From Bacillus sp. ISL-18 (GTDB lineage Bacteria > Bacillota > Bacilli > Bacillales > Cytobacillaceae), in the NCBI RefSeq assembly GCF_018613415.1, contig NZ_JAGGQG010000010.1, forward strand, positions 409,573 through 473,572: 64,000 nucleotides of DNA, written 5' to 3'. The translations under genes were made by a program, and so were the position numbers. Positions 1 through 24,344 of the stretch are shown here, piece after piece (positions within the stretch are counted from its first letter, which is position 1; each line of letters starts with the position of its first letter). The notes below the pieces were generated by a model. It saw nothing but the letters and a program-made list of their open reading frames with translations. It was not told the DNA's origin and ran no database searches.

Positions 1-473
1 TTTGCTGCAAGGGCTGCTAAAAACGTCCCAATTGCGATAAATCCAAAATTTCCTAAAAAGACGACTAACAGGAAATAAGGAAGACTGCCGAGAAATTTAA
101 AATCAAATAGTAAAAATAAAAACGGAATCGAAACGATTTCAACCACTACCATCATGGTGAAATTGGCCAGGAATTTTCCTAGATAAAGACTGGCTGCTTC
201 CATTGGCGCTACCAACAAACCTTGCATCGTATCATTTCGCTGTTCGGAGATAAACGATCGATTGAGTCCAAGAATCCCGGCAAACACGATAATAACCCAG
301 ATGACTCCAGGAATAACCGCTCTTGTTGTATTATTCGCAGGGTCAAACGCAAAACTGAAAACTACGATAACGAGCCCCGCAAAAATAATTTGTGTAGTCA
401 GGATTTGTTTTGTTTTTAGCTCTGAATATAGATCCTTCTTGGCTAGGAAGAGGGCTGTTCGGAAAAGGTTCAT
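1..473 (-). CDS. ccmB: Heme exporter subunit CcmB, partial (C-terminus outside window)
   Basis: Membrane subunit of the CcmAB ABC transporter, which acts in System I cytochrome c maturation by releasing holo-CcmE from CcmC. About 157 N-terminal residues are visible, beginning MNLFRTALFLAKKDLYSELK. Several hydrophobic segments follow, and the loop LNRSFISEQRNDTMQGLL is characteristic of CcmB. The ATG (471-473) overlaps the ccmA stop as ATGA, so the two genes are translationally coupled. The gene runs off the left window edge, so length and C-terminus cannot be judged. Confidence 0.88.
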   Translation of the reverse strand, partial: MNLFRTALFLAKKDLYSELKTKQILTTQIIFAGLVIVVFSFAFDPANNTTRAVIPGVIWVIIVFAGILGLNRSFISEQRNDTMQGLLVAPMEAASLYLGKFLANFTMMVVVEIVSIPFLFLLFDFKFLGSLPYFLLVVFLGNFGFIAIGTFLAALAA

Positions 474-1177
474 GATACACCCTCCACTTGCAGATCATAT
501 TTTTCAGTGACAAAACCGAGATTGTCATTTTGGATTCTAAAGTCATCAACAATTTTTCCATTCTTAACAATGATTATCCGGTCACAGATTTCCGCTGCTT
601 GTTTAAAATCATGGGTTACCATTAATGTTGTTGTACCTTTTTCCTTGATGGATAAGATAACATTGTTTAAAATGGCAATCGCACCTTGATCCAAACCTGT
701 ATGCGGTTCATCCAAAAGGAGAATCTCGGGATCATGGATAATTGCCCTTGCAATCGCAATCCTTTGTATCATACCGCGGGAAAAATTTTTAACTGGCTCA
801 TTCAAAAAGAAGGATAAGCCCACATCTTTTACAAGCATCCTAGCCTTCTGTTCAACATCCTTAACCCCGTATATATTCCCAAAGAAGACGAGATTTTCTA
901 ACGGTGAGTAATGATCATAAAGCAAGCTGGAATGGGGTAAATATCCCAATAATTTTTTTATCGGAATCTGGTTCTTTCTTAATTCCAAGCCGTTCACTAT
1001 TACCTGGCCGGATGTCGGCTTTATTAAGGAAGCCAGTACCTTTAACAGTGTACTTTTCCCCGCACCATTTGGTCCTAGGATGGCAACTGTTTCCCCTTTT
1101 TTTATTGAGAGGTTAACGCCACGTAAGATCAGCTTATTGTCTGCTTGCTTCGTCAGATTTTTTATTTCAATCATCAT
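470..1177 (-). CDS. ccmA: Heme exporter ATP-binding protein CcmA
   Basis: ATPase subunit of the CcmAB transporter, 235 aa, the usual CcmA size. Visible motifs in order are Walker A GPNGAGKST near residue 37, the ABC signature FSRGMIQR near 133, Walker B LLLDEPHTGLD near 155 and the switch histidine in MVTHD. It sits between an exported protein of unknown function and ccmB, with a 4-nt overlap into ccmB. An ABC ATPase of another system is possible from the sequence alone, but the ccmB partner and ccmE/ccmF in the same operon make CcmA the best call. Confidence 0.88.
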   Translation of the reverse strand: MMIEIKNLTKQADNKLILRGVNLSIKKGETVAILGPNGAGKSTLLKVLASLIKPTSGQVIVNGLELRKNQIPIKKLLGYLPHSSLLYDHYSPLENLVFFGNIYGVKDVEQKARMLVKDVGLSFFLNEPVKNFSRGMIQRIAIARAIIHDPEILLLDEPHTGLDQGAIAILNNVILSIKEKGTTTLMVTHDFKQAAEICDRIIIVKNGKIVDDFRIQNDNLGFVTEKYDLQVEGVS

Positions 1178-2580: not shown

Positions 2581-3084
2581 CTAAAGATACTTTTTGCGTT
2601 CTTCATCGATCATCGAGGTAAGGATTTCTCCCTCCACTTCATCCTCAGTGCTTTCGTAATCAGTCTTTACGACATCTGTACCTTTTTTCTTCACCCACTT
2701 ACGGATAATGATGAATACAGCTATTGCCGCTAATCCTAAAACGACAAACGGAAGAACCCATGCTGTTAAACTAAAACCGCTTTTCTCAGGGGATGTTAAG
2801 ATTTCTTCACCATAAATATTGACATAGTATTGACGAATTTTATCTTTATCCCAGCCTTTGTTCATCATCCCTACCAAGTCCTTTTTAAACTCAGTAGTCA
2901 GATTACAAGTATTTGGATCGCATTCATAGTGATCTTGACCACAACCGCATGTACAGGCAAATTGCTGGGCAACTGCTTTAAATTCAGCCGATTTATAATC
3001 AATTTGTCTTGCTTCTGCTCGAATAAATGAACCTTGAAAAATAAACGCAATTACCAGGAGCCCTAAATAAAATTTCTTTTTCAT
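2581..3084 (-). CDS. ccmH: CcmH/CcmL-like cytochrome c biogenesis protein with a CxCGC motif
   Basis: 167 aa from the ATG at 3084, chosen because a GAGGTG site lies just upstream and the frame further upstream overlaps ccmF. It has a signal peptide (1-24), an extracytoplasmic domain and a transmembrane helix near 105-128. Canonical CcmH has an RCxxC redox pair; here the equivalent stretch is CTCGCGQDHYEC (Cys 44, 46, 48, 55) plus Cys 60. The following helix KDLVGMMNKGWDKDKIRQYY fits the CcmH three-helix fold and the family pattern after the cysteines. Expected role: reduction or presentation of apocytochrome cysteines for CcmF. It starts 2 nt after ccmF. Confidence 0.8.
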   Translation of the reverse strand: MKKKFYLGLLVIAFIFQGSFIRAEARQIDYKSAEFKAVAQQFACTCGCGQDHYECDPNTCNLTTEFKKDLVGMMNKGWDKDKIRQYYVNIYGEEILTSPEKSGFSLTAWVLPFVVLGLAAIAVFIIIRKWVKKKGTDVVKTDYESTEDEVEGEILTSMIDEERKKYL

Positions 3085-3086
3085 TA

Positions 3087-5069
3087 TTAAGACACCTCTT
3101 TGCGTACTCCTGTGTACCTCGGAGTGACATTTCCATATTTTCCGTTCCAAACTGCAAATAATGCACCAATTACAATCATAAAGGAACCAAACCATAGCCA
3201 ATCCATCATTGGGTTAACTTTCACAACAAAGGTTGCTTTTCCATTATCTTCCCATGCGCTTAATACGATATATAAGTCTTCTTTAACCGATGAAATGATG
3301 GCCACTTCAGAAGATGGCTGCTCCCAGTTACCATAAAACACTTTTTCAGGTTGGAAGGTGCCAATTTTTTTACCTTTTTTAAAAACGGTAACGTCTGCAT
3401 AAACGATATCGTTAATTCCCTCTTTCTTTTGATCAAGACGATCATAATTGATCCGGTAATCCCTAAGCTCAATTGATTGGCCTAAAGAAACAGTTTTCAT
3501 CGTTTCCACATCATAATTTTGTGAACCGATAATACCCATTGTTATAAAGGCAATACCAAGGTGGACAATATATCCACCATAGCGGCGGCGGTTGCGGACC
3601 ATTAAACGATACAAGGCAACCAATGGAGATTCTTTTGTCATTTTCCGTCTAGCTTTCACACCTCTATAAAACTCTAAGAAATGTGTGACCAACAATAAAA
3701 TAATAACTCCGTATCCAATTACAGCCCATGCTTTTTGGATGCCTAGTACAGCCATTAAAACCATTCCAATTACAGCAAGAATCGCTGGAATCAAAAAGTT
3801 CTTTCGAAGGTTTTTTACAGTAGATTTCTGCCATGCAAGCAATGGACAGACAGCCATAACAAACATCATTGACAATAGAATTGGCGCTTCTACTTTATTA
3901 AAGAACGGCATACCTACTGTTACTTTCGTCCCTCGGACAGCTTCAGATACAAGCGGGAAAACAGTTCCCCAAAAAGTAGCAAATGCTGCACCTACTAATA
4001 GTAAGTTATTAACTAAAAAACTACTTTCTTTCGAAACAATTGAATTGACCTCGCCTGCACTTCGTTTAAGCAAATTGTACCGGCTCATTAGTACATAGAG
4101 AGCCAGGATGACCGCTACACCCATGAAAATTAAGAAATATAATCCTAGATTAGAGTTAGCGAAAGCATGGACAGATGTTAAAACACCACTGCGCACAAGG
4201 AATGTTCCAAATAACGTTAATGCATAGGAGACAATAATTAAGCTTATATTCCATATTTTTAACATATTTTTACGTTCTTGAATCATAATGGAGTGAAGGA
4301 AGGCTGTTGCTGTCAGCCATGGCATAAATGATGCATTTTCTACTGCATCCCATGCCCAATATCCACCCCAGCCAAGCTCTACATACGCCCATTGTCCACC
4401 AAAGATATTTCCAAGACTTAAAAATAACCAGGCAACAATTGTCCAGCGTCGTGTCATTTTAATCCAAAAATCGTCAACGTTTTTCATGATTAATGCTGCC
4501 ATCGCAAAGGCAAAAGGTACGGCGAGACCAACATAACCAAGGTAAAGTGTCACAGGATGAATAATCATCCCCGGGTTTTGCAGCATTGGATTTAAACCCT
4601 TACCCTCTGTCGGAACGGCTGCCAATAAATTGAATGGTTTTGCGACAAATCCCAGAATAAAAAAGAAGAAAACCGCATTGGCCATTAAAATGGCTGAGAT
4701 GTAAGGAACCATTGGGTTTCCTTTCATCTTTCTTGAAAACGTGATCATCACCATGTAAAGAGTTAAGAAAAAGGTCCATAATAATAACGATCCAGCATTT
4801 CCAGCCCATAGAGCAGTAAGTTTATAAATAATTGGCAGTTCACTGCTGGTATAATCGGTAACGTATTCGTATTGAAATTGAGAAGTGGCTAATAGGTAGA
4901 ACATAACAATCATGGCCATACCTGCACAAACAAATAATGCAATCATGCCACTCTTTCCACTGTTGACGAATTTTTGATTTTTTGTGCTTATCCCCAGAGT
5001 AAGGATGAGGAGCGAATAAACTGCAATGGCTAAACCTATATAAATCGTTGCGTTGGCAAATAAATACAT
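3087..5069 (-). CDS. ccmF: Cytochrome c heme lyase CcmF
   Basis: 660 aa polytopic membrane protein of normal CcmF length. It contains the tryptophan-rich WWD heme-handling motif at about residues 234-251 (GWGGYWAWDAVENASFMPW) and histidines flanking it (H171 in NPGMIIHPVTLYLGY and H259), the expected heme ligands of the family. CcmF takes heme from holo-CcmE and ligates it to CxxCH apocytochromes outside the membrane. It lies between ccmE and ccmH with short spacing, in one operon. Identity is secure from the motif, the length and the neighbours. Confidence 0.95.
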   Translation of the reverse strand: MYLFANATIYIGLAIAVYSLLILTLGISTKNQKFVNSGKSGMIALFVCAGMAMIVMFYLLATSQFQYEYVTDYTSSELPIIYKLTALWAGNAGSLLLWTFFLTLYMVMITFSRKMKGNPMVPYISAILMANAVFFFFILGFVAKPFNLLAAVPTEGKGLNPMLQNPGMIIHPVTLYLGYVGLAVPFAFAMAALIMKNVDDFWIKMTRRWTIVAWLFLSLGNIFGGQWAYVELGWGGYWAWDAVENASFMPWLTATAFLHSIMIQERKNMLKIWNISLIIVSYALTLFGTFLVRSGVLTSVHAFANSNLGLYFLIFMGVAVILALYVLMSRYNLLKRSAGEVNSIVSKESSFLVNNLLLVGAAFATFWGTVFPLVSEAVRGTKVTVGMPFFNKVEAPILLSMMFVMAVCPLLAWQKSTVKNLRKNFLIPAILAVIGMVLMAVLGIQKAWAVIGYGVIILLLVTHFLEFYRGVKARRKMTKESPLVALYRLMVRNRRRYGGYIVHLGIAFITMGIIGSQNYDVETMKTVSLGQSIELRDYRINYDRLDQKKEGINDIVYADVTVFKKGKKIGTFQPEKVFYGNWEQPSSEVAIISSVKEDLYIVLSAWEDNGKATFVVKVNPMMDWLWFGSFMIVIGALFAVWNGKYGNVTPRYTGVRKEVS

Positions 5070-5093: not shown

Positions 5094-5546
5094 TTATTTT
5101 TTATTCACTGGCTTATCAAGCAATTGTTTATGTTTTTCAGGGTCATAGTTTTTCATATCTTTTCCTTCGTATTTAGAAGGGCATCTCGTTTTGACCGATT
5201 CTGCTTCAAACGTATTCCTTTTCGTAGGGGCACCTTGAAGAATGGTAATCACTCCCTCTGAAAAATTATCTGGTTTTGTACCATGATAGATCACGTGCAT
5301 GACGTTGCCATGATTATCTTTTACATCAAATTTCAGTTGAATTTTGTCTGGATTCCATTTAATTGTTTTTTCTATTAATAATCCCTCAACCGTAACAAAA
5401 TCGTCTTTGTGCTGGTCTTGAGTCGCCAACAATTCTTTCAAAGTCAGTTCTACACCGCTAGAACCAGGCGTCGCAGCCATCAATAAGAATACAATCGCAC
5501 CCGCAATAATAAAGCCGCCTAACATCACAAGCGTATTTTTCTTCAC
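5094..5546 (-). CDS. ccmE: Heme chaperone CcmE, cysteine (CxxxY) variant
   Basis: 150 aa with one N-terminal membrane anchor (about residues 7-25) and an OB-fold periplasmic-type domain. In classical CcmE a histidine in HxxxY binds heme covalently. Here the motif is CPSKY: Cys122 replaces His and Tyr126 is kept. Such CxxxY forms are known from Desulfovibrio, archaea and some Gram-positives. The protein ferries heme from CcmABC to CcmF, which follows directly. A Ser/Lys-rich C-terminal tail ends the protein. Identity is well supported by the motif and context. Confidence 0.92.
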   Translation of the reverse strand: MKKNTLVMLGGFIIAGAIVFLLMAATPGSSGVELTLKELLATQDQHKDDFVTVEGLLIEKTIKWNPDKIQLKFDVKDNHGNVMHVIYHGTKPDNFSEGVITILQGAPTKRNTFEAESVKTRCPSKYEGKDMKNYDPEKHKQLLDKPVNKK

Positions 5547-5559
5547 TTAGCCCACCTCA

Positions 5560-6618
5560 TTAGATCAATTTTTTCATTTCTTCCTCGTACATTTCCTGGT
5601 CAATTTTACCTGTTAACAACTTTTTACGAAGTTCCTTTTTTTCTTCGGCATTATTTGGTTTATGATCTTTTTTCCCAGTTAATTGTTTTGCAGGCTGCTG
5701 TTTTTGTTTTGTTCCTTTTGCTAGAGAACGCCGGCCCCTTTGAACATTACCCTTTAATCCTAAATAAACGAAAACCCCTGCGATGATTAAAGCTATTCCA
5801 ATAATAGAAGCTCCGCCACCCCCAATAAGCGGCTGTTTAGTGGTCCTGCTTGATGTTTCTTTTATTTCTTGGTCTGTTGCTGTACTGCCACTTTTGTCCG
5901 TAGAAGCTTGTTGTTTGTTAATTGCCTCCATGGTGGATTCCGTTCCAGCCTTCTGGTATGAAAAAGAGTATGTAAGGTTTTCTTTTGCTTTGACACCCTT
6001 ATATTGGTAGTAATTAAGTTCTTCGCCATACTCACTCTTAGTGTTGTTAGCTGCTTTTGGCTCTAACTTTATATTTTTTGCATCCATTGGAGAGTAAAAA
6101 ACGACATCTAATTTGTCAATTGCAGCGTTATTCATCAGCTGATATGTAAAACTTTTTTGCTCTTTTACCTCTATCGTTTTTGTGTAATATTCAATTACAA
6201 ATTGATAGGTTTCATTATTCTTGATTGCCTTTGCCGGCTTCCAAGATACGATTCCTTTTTCCTTATCAACATCATATGGACGTTGGACCTCTGGCTTATT
6301 TTCCTCTGGAAACTCTGCCACTAAATAGGCTTCAAATCCCTTTTCCTTCGCAGGAATAGGTATTTCAATTTTCCCATCATAATCTTGACCGCTTTTGTTT
6401 GTAATGGTTCCATACTCACCAACTAGTAATGAGGGTGAGGGCACATCCCTTGACCCCCAATCTTCCGGGTAGTCAAACTCTGGCATAACTTGTACTTGCA
6501 TTTCCTTAAATGGAAATTTCTCCGCTTGAAATATTGTTGCAGCACTAGTTTTAGAGCTTATAAAACTAGTTAGAAATGAAGCAATGACGAACATTGCCAA
6601 CCACTTTTTCTTAAGCAT
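5560..6618 (-). CDS. Exported single-pass membrane protein, first gene of the ccm operon
   Basis: 352 aa from the ATG at 6618, which is preceded by AAGGAGGATTAAT; an upstream in-frame codon lacks a site. It has a signal peptide (about 1-26), an extracellular beta-rich domain (about 27-225), a Ser/Thr-rich linker, a transmembrane helix (GGGGASIIGIALIIAGVFVY) and a basic tail. The tail ends LLTGKIDQEMYEEEMKKL, the same G(K)I.(Q/E).(M/Y) helix pattern as the gene at 1199-2197, so the two proteins share architecture. It is the promoter-proximal gene of the ccm operon. Function unknown; a scaffold or heme/apocytochrome-binding role is only inferred. Confidence 0.72.
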   Translation of the reverse strand: MLKKKWLAMFVIASFLTSFISSKTSAATIFQAEKFPFKEMQVQVMPEFDYPEDWGSRDVPSPSLLVGEYGTITNKSGQDYDGKIEIPIPAKEKGFEAYLVAEFPEENKPEVQRPYDVDKEKGIVSWKPAKAIKNNETYQFVIEYYTKTIEVKEQKSFTYQLMNNAAIDKLDVVFYSPMDAKNIKLEPKAANNTKSEYGEELNYYQYKGVKAKENLTYSFSYQKAGTESTMEAINKQQASTDKSGSTATDQEIKETSSRTTKQPLIGGGGASIIGIALIIAGVFVYLGLKGNVQRGRRSLAKGTKQKQQPAKQLTGKKDHKPNNAEEKKELRKKLLTGKIDQEMYEEEMKKLI

Positions 6619-6860
6619 ATTAATCCTCCTTGGCTTGGAAAACTCCTCACTTGAACATCCAATTTTCACTATAGTCCTCTTAGAAACAAATATAATCGTT
6701 CTGCTGCCTATAAAGTTGAATCACTATTGAACATTTTGTTAAAGGGCGAAAACGTTTGAGTTTTTGACAAAAAACCACCACAAAATGTTCACATCTTTAA
6801 GATTACTTCGATTTTTTGAGTAATTTGTCGGATTTTAAAACTCTAAACATAGGAACAAAA

Positions 6861-7088: not shown

Positions 7089-7759
7089 TTATTTCTTTTC
7101 TTCCAAGGATCGGATATAGCTCACAATATCTGAGATTTCCTGTTTCTTTAACTGACGCACACCATCAAGACCTTTTAAAGACGGACCCATTCTCGTCTCT
7201 TCACGGCCATAAGCAGTACTAATCCATATTTGCTTATCGGTTGTTAATTTTAAATATTGCGGAGACGCAAGAGCTGTTCCCATTCGCAACATCCCCGCGC
7301 CTGCTTCCATATGACAGTTCTGACAATACAGATTGTACAGTTTTTTTCCATTTACCGAGTTCCCGTCAATGGTATTTGGCACATTAAAACTAATATCTTC
7401 TGTTTGCCAAGTACGGATATAGGTTACTAGATTTTTTATCTCTGTCTGAGATAATCTTGGTCCATAGGCCGGCATACCGGTTCCTTCTCTTCCAAATTTT
7501 ATATAATTATATATATCTTTATCAGGCACAGAGTTTAAGAAATTTTGATTATTTAAAGCAGTTCCTGCCTTTTCCCCTTCACCTTTTCCCCTTCACCTTT
7601 TCCAGTATCACCATGACAGATCATACAATTTTTATTGTATACCTTTTCACCAGCTGTGATAGCCTGTGAATTCTCTTTACCAAAAATATCACTATTACTT
7701 ATACAAATGATAATACCAATTATAACCAAAACATAAAATCCAATTAATATTTTCTTCAT
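7089..7759 (-). pseudogene. Membrane-anchored diheme cytochrome c, frameshifted
   Basis: The first part (from ATG 7759) has an N-terminal membrane anchor and the first heme site CMICH in the context GEKVYNKNCMICHGDTGKG. The frame is then lost. The second part (down to 7089) continues in another frame with ALNNQNFLNSVPDKDIY, a methionine ligand region (GMPAYGP), the second heme site CQNCH and a C-terminal cytochrome helix. The break coincides with two head-to-tail copies of a 14-bp unit (7569-7596). Removing one copy rejoins the frames as GKGEGEKAGTALNNQ and gives about 218 aa. The product would be a Ccm client and an electron carrier on the outer face of the membrane. It starts 9 nt after the full-length upstream gene. 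Confidence 0.82.
7569..7596. repeat. 14-bp tandem duplication causing the cytochrome c frameshift
   Basis: Two exact copies of CTTTTCCCCTTCAC (plus strand) lie at 7569-7582 and 7583-7596. Fourteen is not a multiple of three, so the second copy shifts the frame. A single copy restores one continuous diheme cytochrome frame. Confidence 0.9.
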
Positions 7760-7768
7760 GGGTTACCC

Positions 7769-8218
7769 CTACTTTGGCTGAGGTGTTGGGGTTGCTTCCC
7801 CTAAGTCTTTGTACTTTTCACTAATCAATTCATAAATTTTCTGAGGACTCTTACCGTTAAGATGCATATCTATTGCCTCCCGGGCAATATTGACACACGT
7901 ATCTCACGATATACCATGTGAATCCCATTCTTGTACCTCGTTGTTTTCACCAACGGACTTAACAAAGCAATCTAAATTACTCTTATGACCATCTGCCACA
8001 CAACCACAGTAACAGGGTACTTGAGCAACAACCTCAGGATAAGTTGATGCCATTATATACGTTTCTTGAACTTTTTCAGAAGAGTTTAAAACAAAATCAG
8101 GTAGTGGTGTATGTTTCTTATCAAGCTTCCAACTTTGGTCATCAAGTTTTGAGCTGCATCCTGACGCTGCAATGGCTAATAGAATGAAAAGGAAAAAGAA
8201 AGTTGTCATTCGTTTCAT
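7769..8218 (-). CDS. CYCGC-motif lipoprotein, probable selenoprotein (in-frame UGA at codon 105)
   Basis: The first 104 codons (8218-7907) encode a lipoprotein: signal peptide, lipobox ending at Cys21, then PCYCGC (Cys 69, 71, 73) and Cys84. Codon 105 (7904-7906) is TGA. The same frame stays open for 44 more codons to a TAG at 7769-7771, and the extension starts DTCVNIAREAIDMHLNGKSP. Reading TGA as a cysteine or selenocysteine gives GIS-U-DTC, a UxxC redox pair, and a 149-aa protein. The full-length stop lies 9 nt before the cytochrome c start, as expected for operon coupling. I recall a named CYCXC family of (seleno)proteins that would fit. The alternative is a nonsense mutation in a decaying operon, since the next gene is frameshifted. 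Confidence 0.7.
7871..7889 (-). promoter_or_regulatory. Candidate bacterial SECIS hairpin
   Basis: On the coding (minus) strand a perfect 7-bp stem TATTGCC/GGCAATA closes a 5-nt loop CGGGA. The stem begins 14 nt after the UGA and 21 nt separate the UGA from the loop. The loop has G as its second base. These values fall inside the published bacterial SECIS model (UGA-to-loop distance about 16-37 nt, loop 3-14 nt, G among the first two loop bases). Function is inferred. Confidence 0.6.
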
Positions 8219-14427: not shown

Positions 14428-15030
14428 TTATAAACCACATTTTAATTGAGCATTACAGTTGGTACATGTATTACAGCCGCCGATTTCTTTAACTTTTCCT
14501 TTACGGCAGACTGGGCAGGTATTTCCGACTTCAGATCCAATTGTTACATCTGTTGAACGAAGGTCACTAATTGTATCAACAAGAACGACATGTTGATGTG
14601 GTTTTTCCTCAAACATGGATAGTTGTTCATTTGTATTTTCCTCTGCTTTTAGAGTCAATACTTGTGAATCACGTGAACCGTCTACATATACGGTACCGCC
14701 TTTGGCACCGCCGCGATATAGGCGCTCGTATACTTTTTCTACTTGTTCTACGCTGTATCCTTTTGGTGCGTTAACGGTTTTACTAATGGAGCTGTCGATC
14801 CAGCGCTGAATGACACATTGAACGTCTGCATGGGCTTCTGGTGCAAGTTCCATGGCAGCAACGAACCAGTTTGGCAGGTTGTTAGCGTCTGCTTCAGGGT
14901 GCTGATCTAAATATTCTTGGACGATATCTGCTTTTACTTCAATAAATTTGCCAAGACGTCCGCTTCGGAAGTAAGAGAATGAGAAATAAGGCTCTAATCC
15001 GGTAGAGACGCCAACCATTGTTCCAGTACT
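14428..15030 (-). CDS. nrdJ: B12-dependent ribonucleotide reductase, 3' exon
   Basis: 200 codons, starting in the highly conserved segment STGTMVGVSTGLEPYFSFSY, which follows TVAPTG in unsplit homologues. It carries the C-terminal cysteine array (CPVCRKGK, then GGCNTCTNCNAQLKCGL) that re-reduces the active site. Joining it to 16185-18137 at AACGGGT/AGTACT restores one frame of 851 aa. A GTG in the intron's last bases could be taken as a start, but this is a splice junction and not a gene start. It ends just before the terminator. Confidence 0.93.
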   Translation of the reverse strand, partial: STGTMVGVSTGLEPYFSFSYFRSGRLGKFIEVKADIVQEYLDQHPEADANNLPNWFVAAMELAPEAHADVQCVIQRWIDSSISKTVNAPKGYSVEQVEKVYERLYRGGAKGGTVYVDGSRDSQVLTLKAEENTNEQLSMFEEKPHQHVVLVDTISDLRSTDVTIGSEVGNTCPVCRKGKVKEIGGCNTCTNCNAQLKCGL

Positions 15031-15114
15031 CACGTTTGTTACTCTCTATAATTCATAGAGGGCGGGGTTATTAGTACCCACTCCATATGTCGCCATATGG
15101 GTCAGACTATATCA

Positions 15115-15780
15115 TCAACCATTTTTTGAATGTCTTTTTCGATGACAAGGATATTCACAGAGACAAATAAGGTTTGACAATTTATTTGCACTTTCCCAGT
15201 CTCCATTAAAATTACGAAATGGAATAATATGATGAACTGATAGTTCTTTTCCATATTGTTCTTCAGATATTCCACAGTTTTGACAGGTAAATTGATCTCG
15301 TTCTCTGGCCAATCTTCTTTGACTTAGCCAATTCGGTCCATAATAGTCAATGTCTCTACCGTTCCATGTTCCACTTTTTTCACCAGAAAACATCTTACTA
15401 TCACTGTAATATTTGCCCATGCACATTATTGAGCAGAAATTAAGCGTTCGTAAAGTAGAAGGTTTTTTCTCAAAATCTTTACCACAACTAGTACATGTGA
15501 CGTGGACTTGATTTTTATATTGTATTTTCCCTCTTCTACCATTAGCTTTTCCCAGACAACCTCTGGAGCAATATTTAGCTGTTCTTTCTCGATTCTGAGG
15601 AACACTAAATTTTTGCCAGCAATTAGCACATATAATATCAACCTGTTTTCTTAAATGTTGATTAATTAAATGTCCATTTTGAATCTGGTAAGCTTGCTTA
15701 CAGTTTTGGTTACAAAAGTTGGTATTAAATATCACTGACGGTTTACGAGTTATTGTATTTCCACAAAAACTACATCTCAC
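15115..15780 (-). CDS. Intron-encoded HNH homing endonuclease
   Basis: 221 aa. It has three repeated zinc-finger-like units of the form CxxC...(F/Y)CxxxC (CSFCGN...FCNQNC, CANCWQ...YCSRGC, CTSCGK...FCSIMC) followed by an HNH domain: CQNCG, then SVHHIIPF, an Asn-rich stretch and LICLC...CHRKRH. It would cut intronless nrdJ alleles to drive intron homing. The only in-frame start is a GTG at 15780 with a poor site. Upstream sequence shows that the gene once began earlier and has lost its first finger, so activity is doubtful. Confidence 0.85.
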   Translation of the reverse strand: MRCSFCGNTITRKPSVIFNTNFCNQNCKQAYQIQNGHLINQHLRKQVDIICANCWQKFSVPQNRERTAKYCSRGCLGKANGRRGKIQYKNQVHVTCTSCGKDFEKKPSTLRTLNFCSIMCMGKYYSDSKMFSGEKSGTWNGRDIDYYGPNWLSQRRLARERDQFTCQNCGISEEQYGKELSVHHIIPFRNFNGDWESANKLSNLICLCEYPCHRKRHSKNG

Positions 15781-15929
15781 CTCTCTCTTCTTAGATAATT
15801 CCTTTCAGAAGTCTGGAGGATGATTTTTGTGAAATACCGTTTGACAATTACGAGAACAAAATTTCTTCCTATCAAAATGACTAGGTTTACTCTAATATCC
15901 TTACCACAATTAAGACATTGTTTAATCAC
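15781..15929 (-). pseudogene. Decayed N-terminal zinc finger of the HNH endonuclease
   Basis: A GTG at 15929 with AAAGGAG upstream starts IKQCLNCGKDIRV. One nucleotide appears to be missing in an A-run (about 15885-15889). The sequence then continues in the endonuclease frame as KPSHFDRKKFCSRNCQTVF and meets TGA at 15805-15807. Together they form a fourth finger of the same CxxC...FCxxxC type. Two lesions separate it from the intact remainder of the gene. Confidence 0.72.
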
Positions 15930-16184
15930 AGTAATTCTCCTTTGTCCTTTTTAATAATTATAAAGGAGAACAAATGTTCCTGCAACTAAAATGGTTGCTC
16001 AGCATGTAGTCGTTGAGGGGTCAGCCACGACTTCCCTGCGGATTGTCTGGTAGGCTTTCGCCAACACTCTTACCTTTTTACCTATTAATAGTTGGCAAGA
16101 CAAGGTAGTAAGAGATTCGCCAGGGTTTCCCGCATATAGCTAAGTTTACGCAGCGCTCTTACGAACACTGGGGGCAATATTTTT

Positions 16185-18137
16185 ACCCGTTGGAGCAACG
16201 GTTAGCAAATGTGAATTTCTAATTCCTTTTTCTAGTATTGATTCACGGATATCTTCAGGCATTTTTTTCATAAATCCTGTATTAATGAATGCCTGTCGTA
16301 AGCGATTCTGTTCCTCAGGTGTTTCGCCCGTTAAGAATGGGAAGCTTCCCTTTTCTGTTGCTAATTCAACAGATGTTCTATATGCAGTCGTTGCAATTGT
16401 TTCAAATACTTTATCAACTAGTTCATTACCTTCTGGTGAACCATATTCTGTTTCACAGTAGATTAGGAGATCATGTAATCCCATGACACCAAGGCCAACA
16501 CGGCGCTCACCAAGAGCTTGTTTTTTGTTTTCTTCTAAGAAGTATGGAGTAGCGTTTATGACGTTGTCCTGCATTCGGACACCGATTGCTACAGTTTGTT
16601 TAAGCTTATCAAAATCAACAGTTTTGGTTTCTTTATCTGCCATTTCAGCAAGGTTTACTGCAGCAAGGTTACAGACAGAAAATGGTGCAAGTGGCTGCTC
16701 TCCACATGGATTTGTTGCAACGACTTGTTGCCCATATGCTTTTGCATTTGTCATGTCGTTTGCATTATCAATAAAGAATATACCTGGTTCAGCAGAGTAA
16801 GTAGCACAGATGTTAATTAAATTCCAAAGTTCTTTTGCCTTTATTTTCTTATAAACACGAACTTTATGGCCAAGTTTTTCCCACTCACGCACGTCACCGA
16901 CTTTATGCCATTCTTCATTGTAGATTTTCATTTCTTCTTGATTATAGTGTTCAACATATGGGAATCGCAGTTCATATTCACCATCGTTTTCAACAGCTTC
17001 CATGAATTCCTTTGTTAAACATACTGAAATGTTTGCACCAGTTAGGAATTCTGAGTTATGAACGGTGTAATTTCCGCCAGTTAACAGCTTTTCCTCTGCA
17101 TGTGCAATACTATTTTCATCAAAACCACCAAATCCAGGAATACTTTTGTAATTCACAATTCCTTGGTACATTGCCGTTTCTTGAGCTGTTAGAGGTGTAA
17201 ATTTAAGTTTATCTTTTGCATGCTTTTTGATTGTTTCATCGTTTGTATTTTCAATTAAGAATCGTAGAATTCTAGGATTCTGCATTTTAGAAATAATAAA
17301 TTCAATAATATCCGGATGCCAATCAGCCAGCATGATCATCTGAGCCCCCCGGCGCGAACCGCCTTGCTCAACTAGATGAGTCAATTTCGCAATATCATCA
17401 AGCCAAGAAACCGAACCAGAAGATTTACCATTTACGCCTCTAGCCAATGTATTACGCGGTCTTAATGTTGAACCATTCGTTCCAACACCGCCGCCGCGGC
17501 TCATGATTTCCATAACCTGTTTACGATGGTCGGAAATGCCTTCACGAGAATCTGCTACAAATGGCATGACATAACAGTTAAAATACGTAACATCCGTATT
17601 GGCCCCTGCACCATAAAGAACCCGGCCTGCAGGAATAAAGTTCAGGTTCACTAACTCTTGATAAAACTTCTCCGTCCACTCTAAGCGCTTCTCTTCCGTT
17701 GTTTCAACTGCAGCAAGACCAGTGGCATTCCTTTTCGCAATCTGCTCATAGAAGAGCTCCAATGGCTTCTCAATCACATCTAAAGAACGGATGATCTCAC
17801 CTGTTGCAGCTTCCTCAGAATCAAGTACTCCTCTAAATTCTTCTTCAACCAAAACCTTTGCCTTTTTCTTTTCCCAATCAATCTCCAAAATCGTACCTAA
17901 GCCGCGAGCTGGGAATTTTGGATCCTCTTTAATTGTTAATACAACAAAGTCGCCAGTTGTTAGGGTAATTTTTGCTGTGTCTTTAAAGGTATAACGATCG
18001 AGCATAACCAATCTTGATACACCTTTATGAGTTATTTTCATATCTGGGGTAACCGGGTGCACTTGGGGGAATAAGCGGATATCCTCATTCAACCTTTCAA
18101 AATCAATATTCATTTTTTGTCTAAAAACTACAGACAT
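16185..18137 (-). CDS. nrdJ: B12-dependent ribonucleotide reductase, 5' exon
   Basis: 651 codons from ATG 18137 (AGGAG 8 nt upstream). It covers an N-terminal region and most of the class II catalytic barrel: NPCGEQPL with the redox cysteine context, SVCNLAAVNLAEM and GVGLGVMGLHDLL are typical of NrdJ. Unspliced, the frame would read 12 residues into the intron and stop (GKNIAPSVRKSAA). The enzyme makes deoxyribonucleotides using adenosylcobalamin, independent of oxygen. The upstream region carries two NrdR-like boxes. With the 3' exon the protein is 851 aa, normal for this family. Confidence 0.95.
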
Positions 18138-23977: not shown

Positions 23978-24130
23978 GCACCTGAAAGTTTACCTAAAGT
24001 GGTTTTCCCCGTGGGTGGCTGCTAATCTTGCAGCGCTCTCCAGAGCTGCGTCAAACAAGAGTTCTTTTGCCTGAGAGATTCACATTTCTGCTTGCTCCTT
24101 CGGCGCTACGTTCCGTAGTCTCTCCCCTTG
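23965..24130 (-). ncRNA. Tandem glycine riboswitch upstream of gcvT
   Basis: On the minus strand the leader reads GGGGAGAGACTACGG, then GCGCCGAAGGAGCAAGC and ATCTCTCAGGCAAAAGAAC for the first aptamer. The second aptamer has GGAGAGCG, CCACCCACGGGG and TTTCAGGTGC. These are the conserved blocks of the two-aptamer glycine riboswitch. Glycine binding is expected to prevent the following terminator from forming and to switch on gcvT-gcvPA-gcvPB. The remainder of the 455-nt gap to yqhH (24131-24344) is AT-rich and holds the divergent promoters. Confidence 0.95.
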
Positions 24131-24344
24131 CTGTCATCCGCATTATAATATTTTTTAATTGGGTAATACTAATTATACTTAAAAAATAAATTACTTTATT
24201 AAAATATTTAAAACATTCTAAAGCTATTATCATCCTATCATTAAACTACAACATTGAGCAATAAATTTATTAGAAAATTAGAACACCATTCTCCCTTTTA
24301 ATTGGCAAAATAAATGATACAACATTGTATGAAAAGGAGCTGTA

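Follow-up and report, generated by a model that had tools for sequence, protein, structure and literature searches.

The closest described relatives of the gene considered here belong to a family entered as 'CYCXC family protein (hypothetical protein OS_HP4)', with domain PF13798 and a UxxC motif, among the predicted selenoproteins in Table 1 of PMC13188914, and OS_HP4 with UxxC also appears in PMC9312934. Bacillus, Firmicutes and Bacillota are absent from the main text of PMC13188914, and three selenoproteins of Bacillales are already known from Table 2 of PMC1794560. A PCYCGC lipoprotein of Parageobacillus thermoglucosidasius, AOT13_14730, is similar in its lipobox, CYCGC motif and further conserved cysteines but differs in that cysteines only are described for it, 'seleno' being absent from the main text of PMC13068155. 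We have analysed a member of this family in a 64,000-nucleotide stretch of DNA, hereafter the window, from Bacillus sp. ISL-18 (NCBI RefSeq assembly GCF_018613415.1, contig NZ_JAGGQG010000010.1, positions 409,573 to 473,572 of the forward strand). On sequence evidence, the TGA at codon 105 of this 149-residue lipoprotein gene is very probably decoded as selenocysteine (Sec, U). The OS_HP4 family is already known and the window protein is a further member of it; in the open-licence literature no report was found of genus-wide TGA copies, of linkage to cytochrome c maturation (Ccm) genes, of resemblance to CcmH or of reversions.

The lipoprotein gene and its family

The predicted features of the gene are as follows, alignment A1 comprising 16 of 60 copies from a genus sample and alignment A4 comprising 52 of 81 sequences.

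7769..8218, minus strand: predicted selenoprotein gene, PCYCGC/CYCXC lipoprotein of 149 residues, Sec at 105
8156..8158, minus strand: Cys21, presumed lipobox cysteine, invariant in A1; role taken from sequence context
8000..8014, minus strand: CYCGC motif, residues 69-73; C69, C71 and C73 invariant in A4
7967..7969, minus strand: Cys84, invariant in A4
7904..7906, minus strand: TGA codon 105, predicted to be read as selenocysteine; homologue codons TGA or Cys
7895..7897, minus strand: Cys108, second residue of UxxC, invariant in A4
7871..7889, minus strand: putative selenocysteine insertion sequence (SECIS)-type hairpin, 7-bp stem, CGGGA loop at 7878-7882, from its fold and compensatory changes

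The ATG start occupies 8218-8216, codon 105 occupies 7906-7904 and, after 44 further open codons, a terminal TAG is reached at 7771-7769, 9 nt before the ATG of the next gene at 7759. A preliminary description of the window had given this same arrangement of TGA, open frame and 9-nt gap without naming a strand, and it is borne out on the minus strand; several stops interrupt reading of the same coordinates on the plus strand. Under translation table 11 the product stops at 104 residues, and genes of this kind are shortened by about 30% if read without Sec. The N-terminus resembles a signal peptide followed by a lipobox cysteine.

With the TGA read as Sec, residues 35-148 of the product match PF13798 (PCYCGC) at 1.7e-30 and 106.4 bits, exceeding the gathering cut-off of 25 bits; the match runs through the final position of the profile, and homology past the TGA extends to the C-terminus of the read-through product. 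The CYCXC (seleno)protein family mentioned in the preliminary description does exist, as the NCBIfam model NF041379 'CYCXC family (seleno)protein', which the product matches at 5.9e-21 and 74.3 bits. This score is below the curated cut-off of 90, and the protein is therefore assigned broadly to PF13798/OS_HP4 and not to that equivalog model. The 104-residue part by itself scores 49.2 bits against NF041379, indicating that the stretch behind the TGA contributes to the match. The window protein is thus like OS_HP4/NF041379 in its Pfam domain and in the predicted Sec of its UxxC motif, all 52 scanned members of A4 matching NF041379 at E <= 0.001, but unlike them in falling under the curated cut-off and in lying beside a Ccm cluster. 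Here UxxC is U105-D-T-C108, the sole pair so spaced among the cysteines invariant in A4, suggesting that the Sec site is the same as that of published OS_HP4.

Codon 105, the downstream hairpin and the selenocysteine machinery

A scan of named genomes gave 268 stretches encoding relatives, of which the best 80 were kept as named loci. In these 80, the codon at the site is TGA in 53, TGC in 15, TGT in 12 and anything else in none, and the remaining five cysteine positions are Cys in 80/80. The scan ran on two peptide patterns, one of which demands Cys at the site so that Cys copies are favoured in these counts, and U was treated as C in the alignment used to read the site; at one locus carrying two copies (L150), the codon count took a different copy from the scan match. 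Within this best 80 of 268, the nearest named relatives bear the titles Neobacillus or Bacillus sp., the top one being N. drentensis JC05 at 97%, and the titles indicate that the source genus is probably Neobacillus. Two PCYCGC copies stand side by side at L041, L150 and probably L144, and a BNR-repeat gene nearby is common to L144, L149 and L150.

A similar pattern is found in wider samples. The genus sample contains PF13798 in 54/60 genomes and a TGA copy in 47/60, and the site codon in the 60 copies from those 54 genomes is TGA in 52 and Cys in 8; these derive from 61 places, a 41-residue fragment (G024) being left out and the codon of one copy (G011) being taken from its translation. Among the 186 genomes of the family sample, 91 have a copy listed with one TGA, a tally counted by hand that takes any copy with one TGA, whatever its position, and includes one broken copy (G087). 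SelA (1e-30) is detected in 90/91 of these TGA-copy genomes versus 77/95 of the others (Fisher p 3.6e-5, kinship ignored), and 13 of the 19 family genomes lacking SelA come from one genus (g20). At the level of the class, the PF13798 family is present in 127/299 genomes, mostly without TGA, 20 of the 127 having a place with one TGA (hand count).

The hairpin downstream of the TGA (TATTGCC-CGGGA-GGCAATA) has a 5-nt loop and begins 14 nt past the TGA, with the loop 21 nt past it. For the 45 nt from the TGA, a folding energy of -14.0 kcal/mol is obtained (z -2.7), 2/200 shuffles being as good. The published rules for bacterial SECIS (bSECIS) elements, given in the Fig. 2 legend of PMC13188914, specify an apical loop of 3-9 nt, a stem of 4-16 bp, a G among the first two loop bases, a loop 16-37 nt from the UGA and a minimum free energy <= -7.5. 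Applying these bSECISearch rules directly, the window hairpin satisfies all of the limits. Across the named loci, a stem of at least 4 bp whose loop has a G at its first or second base is present in 53/53 TGA genes and in 0/27 Cys genes, 2/27 of the latter possessing such a stem without the required loop G. The 53 TGA genes and the window make up alignment A2, with 41 distinct rows; here 95.1% of cells are paired in the 7-bp stem and 14 cells are altered on both sides, 0/500 shuffles being as high, although this test is biased towards the hairpin columns, which were defined on the fold of the window itself. The loop-closing pair varies among C-G, G-C and A-U, and versions of the stem slid along the alignment score lower on measures other than the count of doubly changed pairs considered below. 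In the corresponding alignment of the 27 Cys genes (A3), the same columns are paired in 60.4% of cells, which is not above shuffles.

The genome of the window encodes SelA (475.6 bits), SelB (347.1 bits, with SelB winged-helix domains) and a tRNA-Sec with anticodon tca detected both by Rfam (63.3 bits, above cut-off) and by ARAGORN. A SelD-like protein, named from its AIRS domains and sequence, is encoded at L042 6523-7602 with an in-frame TGA in the motif AGUGCK, and its gene lies about 1 kb from selA on the opposite strand with one ORF between them. Two formate-dehydrogenase-type genes of the same genome, L187 and L192, have a TGA followed by a His codon, L187 matching the Fdh-alpha model at 790.7 bits (above cut-off) and L192 at 196.6 bits (below it, the match being in pieces). 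Possession of SelA, SelB, tRNA-Sec, a SelD-like protein and Fdh-type TGA genes therefore gives this genome the appearance of a typical Sec user. The assembly carries a contamination mark of 8.27%, yet SelA (E < 1e-139) is present in 59/60 genomes of the genus sample. The sole exception of the 60, G050 (L074), retains only a stop-containing remnant of selA, lacks a SelB hit above cut-off and shows no match to PF13798, an apparent loss of the Sec trait.

Thus the SECIS-like hairpin of the preliminary description, with its 7-bp stem, CGGGA loop and 14-nt spacing, is confirmed and conforms to published bacterial rules, and the decoding of UGA as Sec suggested there gains support from the sel genes, the TGA/Cys pattern at the site and the fit to the SECIS rules. 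The searches it had proposed found all four of selA, selB, selC and selD in the genome, and Cys or Sec at position 105 in the homologues examined.

The Ccm neighbourhood and possible functions

Downstream of the lipoprotein gene, the minus strand carries the following genes.

7089..7759, minus strand: gene for a diheme cytochrome c, directly after the lipoprotein gene; Pfam cytochrome c; ORFs 7553-7759 and 7089-7529
5560..6669, minus strand: probably an exported protein; no Pfam match, same place in relatives
5094..5546, minus strand: ccmE, PF03100 3.3e-21
3087..5069, minus strand: ccmF, PF16327 5.7e-60 and PF01578 1.6e-36
2581..3087, minus strand: ccmH-like gene with a CTCGC motif, PF03918 1.6e-19
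470..1177, minus strand: ABC ATPase, CcmA-like as judged from its translation and position

Two genes without assigned identity lie between ccmH and the CcmA-like ATPase, and beyond the latter ccmB, CcmC-like and thioredoxin-like genes follow, mostly outside the window (L183, with matches to CcmB, Cytochrom_C_asm and AhpC-TSA/thioredoxin). As judged from the sequence, this is most of a system I (Ccm) set, on one strand and with the lipoprotein gene first. The association recurs in relatives, ccmE, ccmF and a cytochrome c gene standing beside the lipoprotein gene at 45/80 named loci (38 Sec, 7 Cys). In the window, a 14-nt tandem duplication at 7570-7597 disrupts the frame of the diheme cytochrome c gene, which L103 carries as a single intact frame and which runs to nearly full length, uninterrupted by a stop, in 46/80 named loci; the duplication may be a true mutation, a variable repeat or an assembly error.

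CcmH is the thiol oxidoreductase of system I. When the lipoprotein profile is compared by hhalign with that of the cluster's own CcmH, a probability of 77.5% and a score of 37 are obtained, above the maxima of column-shuffled controls (100 each), 22.4 and, with Cys columns kept, 29.4. The CYCGC of the lipoprotein aligns on the CTCGC of CcmH (PF03918), C84 and site 105 fall on conserved Cys, and the two share a G-x5-I-x7-Y spacing, the alignment running on into the C-terminal helices. The window protein is unlike CcmH in being a lipoprotein with an extra segment and in that C108 falls on Thr and has no Cys partner; a further alignment, A5, comprises 25 chosen CcmH sequences. Pfam reports no CcmH domain in the lipoprotein at E <= 0.01, PCYCGC being the sole domain found, and fold comparison of the confident AlphaFold2 model (pLDDT 90.6, mostly helical) listed no clear match. 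The profile resemblance is accordingly treated as a lead and not as membership, any homology to CcmH being weak.

Given the Ccm gene linkage and the CcmH profile alignment, a CcmH-like selenol/thiol reductant for cytochrome c maturation is considered the most likely function, a tentative assignment. The suggestion of the preliminary description, a redox partner of Ccm or of the diheme cytochrome, would likewise fit the gene's position and the weak likeness to CcmH. In the proposed mechanism, the resident SelA/SelB/SelC/SelD system would read TGA 105 as Sec, guided by the hairpin that starts 14 nt further on, to yield a PCYCGC (CYCXC, OS_HP4) lipoprotein with six redox-capable positions (C69, C71, C73, C84, U105 and C108). 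The exported, lipid-anchored domain would act as the reductant, with U105-C108 as the active pair, and would hold the haem-binding cysteines of apocytochrome c in the reduced state, serving the Ccm machinery whose genes lie downstream. A broader and more doubtful proposal is that the protein may be a stand-alone, lipid-anchored relative of CcmH in which a selenol replaces a thiol, representing a Se-dependent step in cytochrome c maturation in Bacilli that reverts to Cys in some species with the Sec machinery kept. Through this analysis, a table entry of undescribed function becomes a testable system that is often clustered with cytochrome c maturation genes.

The selenoprotein could instead serve in extracytoplasmic handling of copper or other soft metals, for example by binding Cu(I) through CYCGC, C84 and U105-C108 or by shielding thiols against copper; this is the main rival explanation and, in our view, somewhat the less likely. 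The Cys-rich CxCxC motif suits such a role, and some copies outside Ccm clusters lie <=5 kb from CopA-, CsoR-, SCO-, CopD-, YtkA- or DsbD/CcdA-like genes, with such neighbours at five named Sec loci (L147, L148, L154, L156 and L167) and, in family genomes, at L083, L087 and L090-L095. This proximity was, however, tabulated from hand-picked queries without a random-locus control; the 45 Ccm-linked loci gave short, weak CopA-like matches only (five loci), two Cys loci (L170 and L177) likewise have CsoR/CopA about 5 kb off, and CcdA/ResA neighbours are equally compatible with a thiol role. Furthermore, Sec is generally used for redox chemistry and not for metal storage, which also counts against a copper function.

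Alternative readings of the TGA, cysteine copies and other features

Several observations weigh against decoding of the TGA as Sec. The open frame by itself is weak evidence, as 44 open codons are expected by chance with a probability of about 0.12 at uniform codon use; what stands above chance is the homology past the TGA, the restriction of the site to TGA or Cys and the compensatory changes in the stem. Within A2, the number of pairs changed on both sides is 3, a value matched by 89/500 shuffles and by a +3 slide of the stem, and the fold energies of TGA and Cys genes overlap. Finally, one genome (G167, L083 8444-8893) has the TGA and an intact hairpin, yet gave no match to SelA and no SelB score above the cut-off; this copy adjoins CcdA and a ResA-like thioredoxin gene on a 43.9-kb contig with metal-resistance genes, and may be recently acquired or a contaminant.

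Insertion of a residue other than Sec at the TGA, such as Trp or that of a near-cognate tRNA, is very improbable; UGA read-through by near-cognate tRNAs is known in Bacillus, but Cys is the sole alternative to TGA in 80/80 homologues, the SECIS rule is satisfied with TGA only, and both tRNA-Sec and SelB are present. The table-11 frame, the length of open frame attainable by chance and the G167 copy might suggest that translation simply stops at the TGA, with a 104-residue form or a pseudogene as the real product. This reading is scarcely credible beside a C-terminal domain kept beyond the TGA, a site that is TGA or Cys only, the presence of the sel genes and a hairpin that accompanies TGA and shows compensatory changes.

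Under selenocysteine decoding, the distribution of Sec and Cys on a tree of the 80 named proteins (125 columns, the Sec/Cys site alone masked and residues over the hairpin kept; bootstrap not settled) requires 6 changes, 3 of them forced by well-supported branches, compared with 22.8 for shuffled labels. Seven Cys copies, from genomes titled Neobacillus or Bacillus sp., fall within a supported clade that also holds 37 Sec rows; provided that the root is outside this clade, reversion from Sec to Cys is therefore the simplest interpretation. Such reversions are probable in some relatives. In one of the seven Cys copies of that clade, from N. cucumis DSM 101566 (L106), GCCCGGGA is retained and the 3' arm is altered. 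Seven genomes of the genus sample have Cys copies only, and SelA is retained in all of them. Sec-to-Cys changes are reported as few, chiefly in the FdhA and SelD families, in PMC1794560. TGA and Cys relatives in SelA-retaining genomes of one genus offer a natural comparison for the benefit of Sec and for the decay of SECIS elements once unneeded.

Elsewhere in the window, a ribonucleotide reductase gene (14428-18137) is split at profile position 390/391 into pieces at 16146-18137 and 14428-15033, with an HNH endonuclease ORF at 15115-15780 between them. The interruption is probably an intron or an intein; no Rfam intron matched at the gathering threshold. A glycine riboswitch aptamer is located at 24049-24137 on the minus strand.
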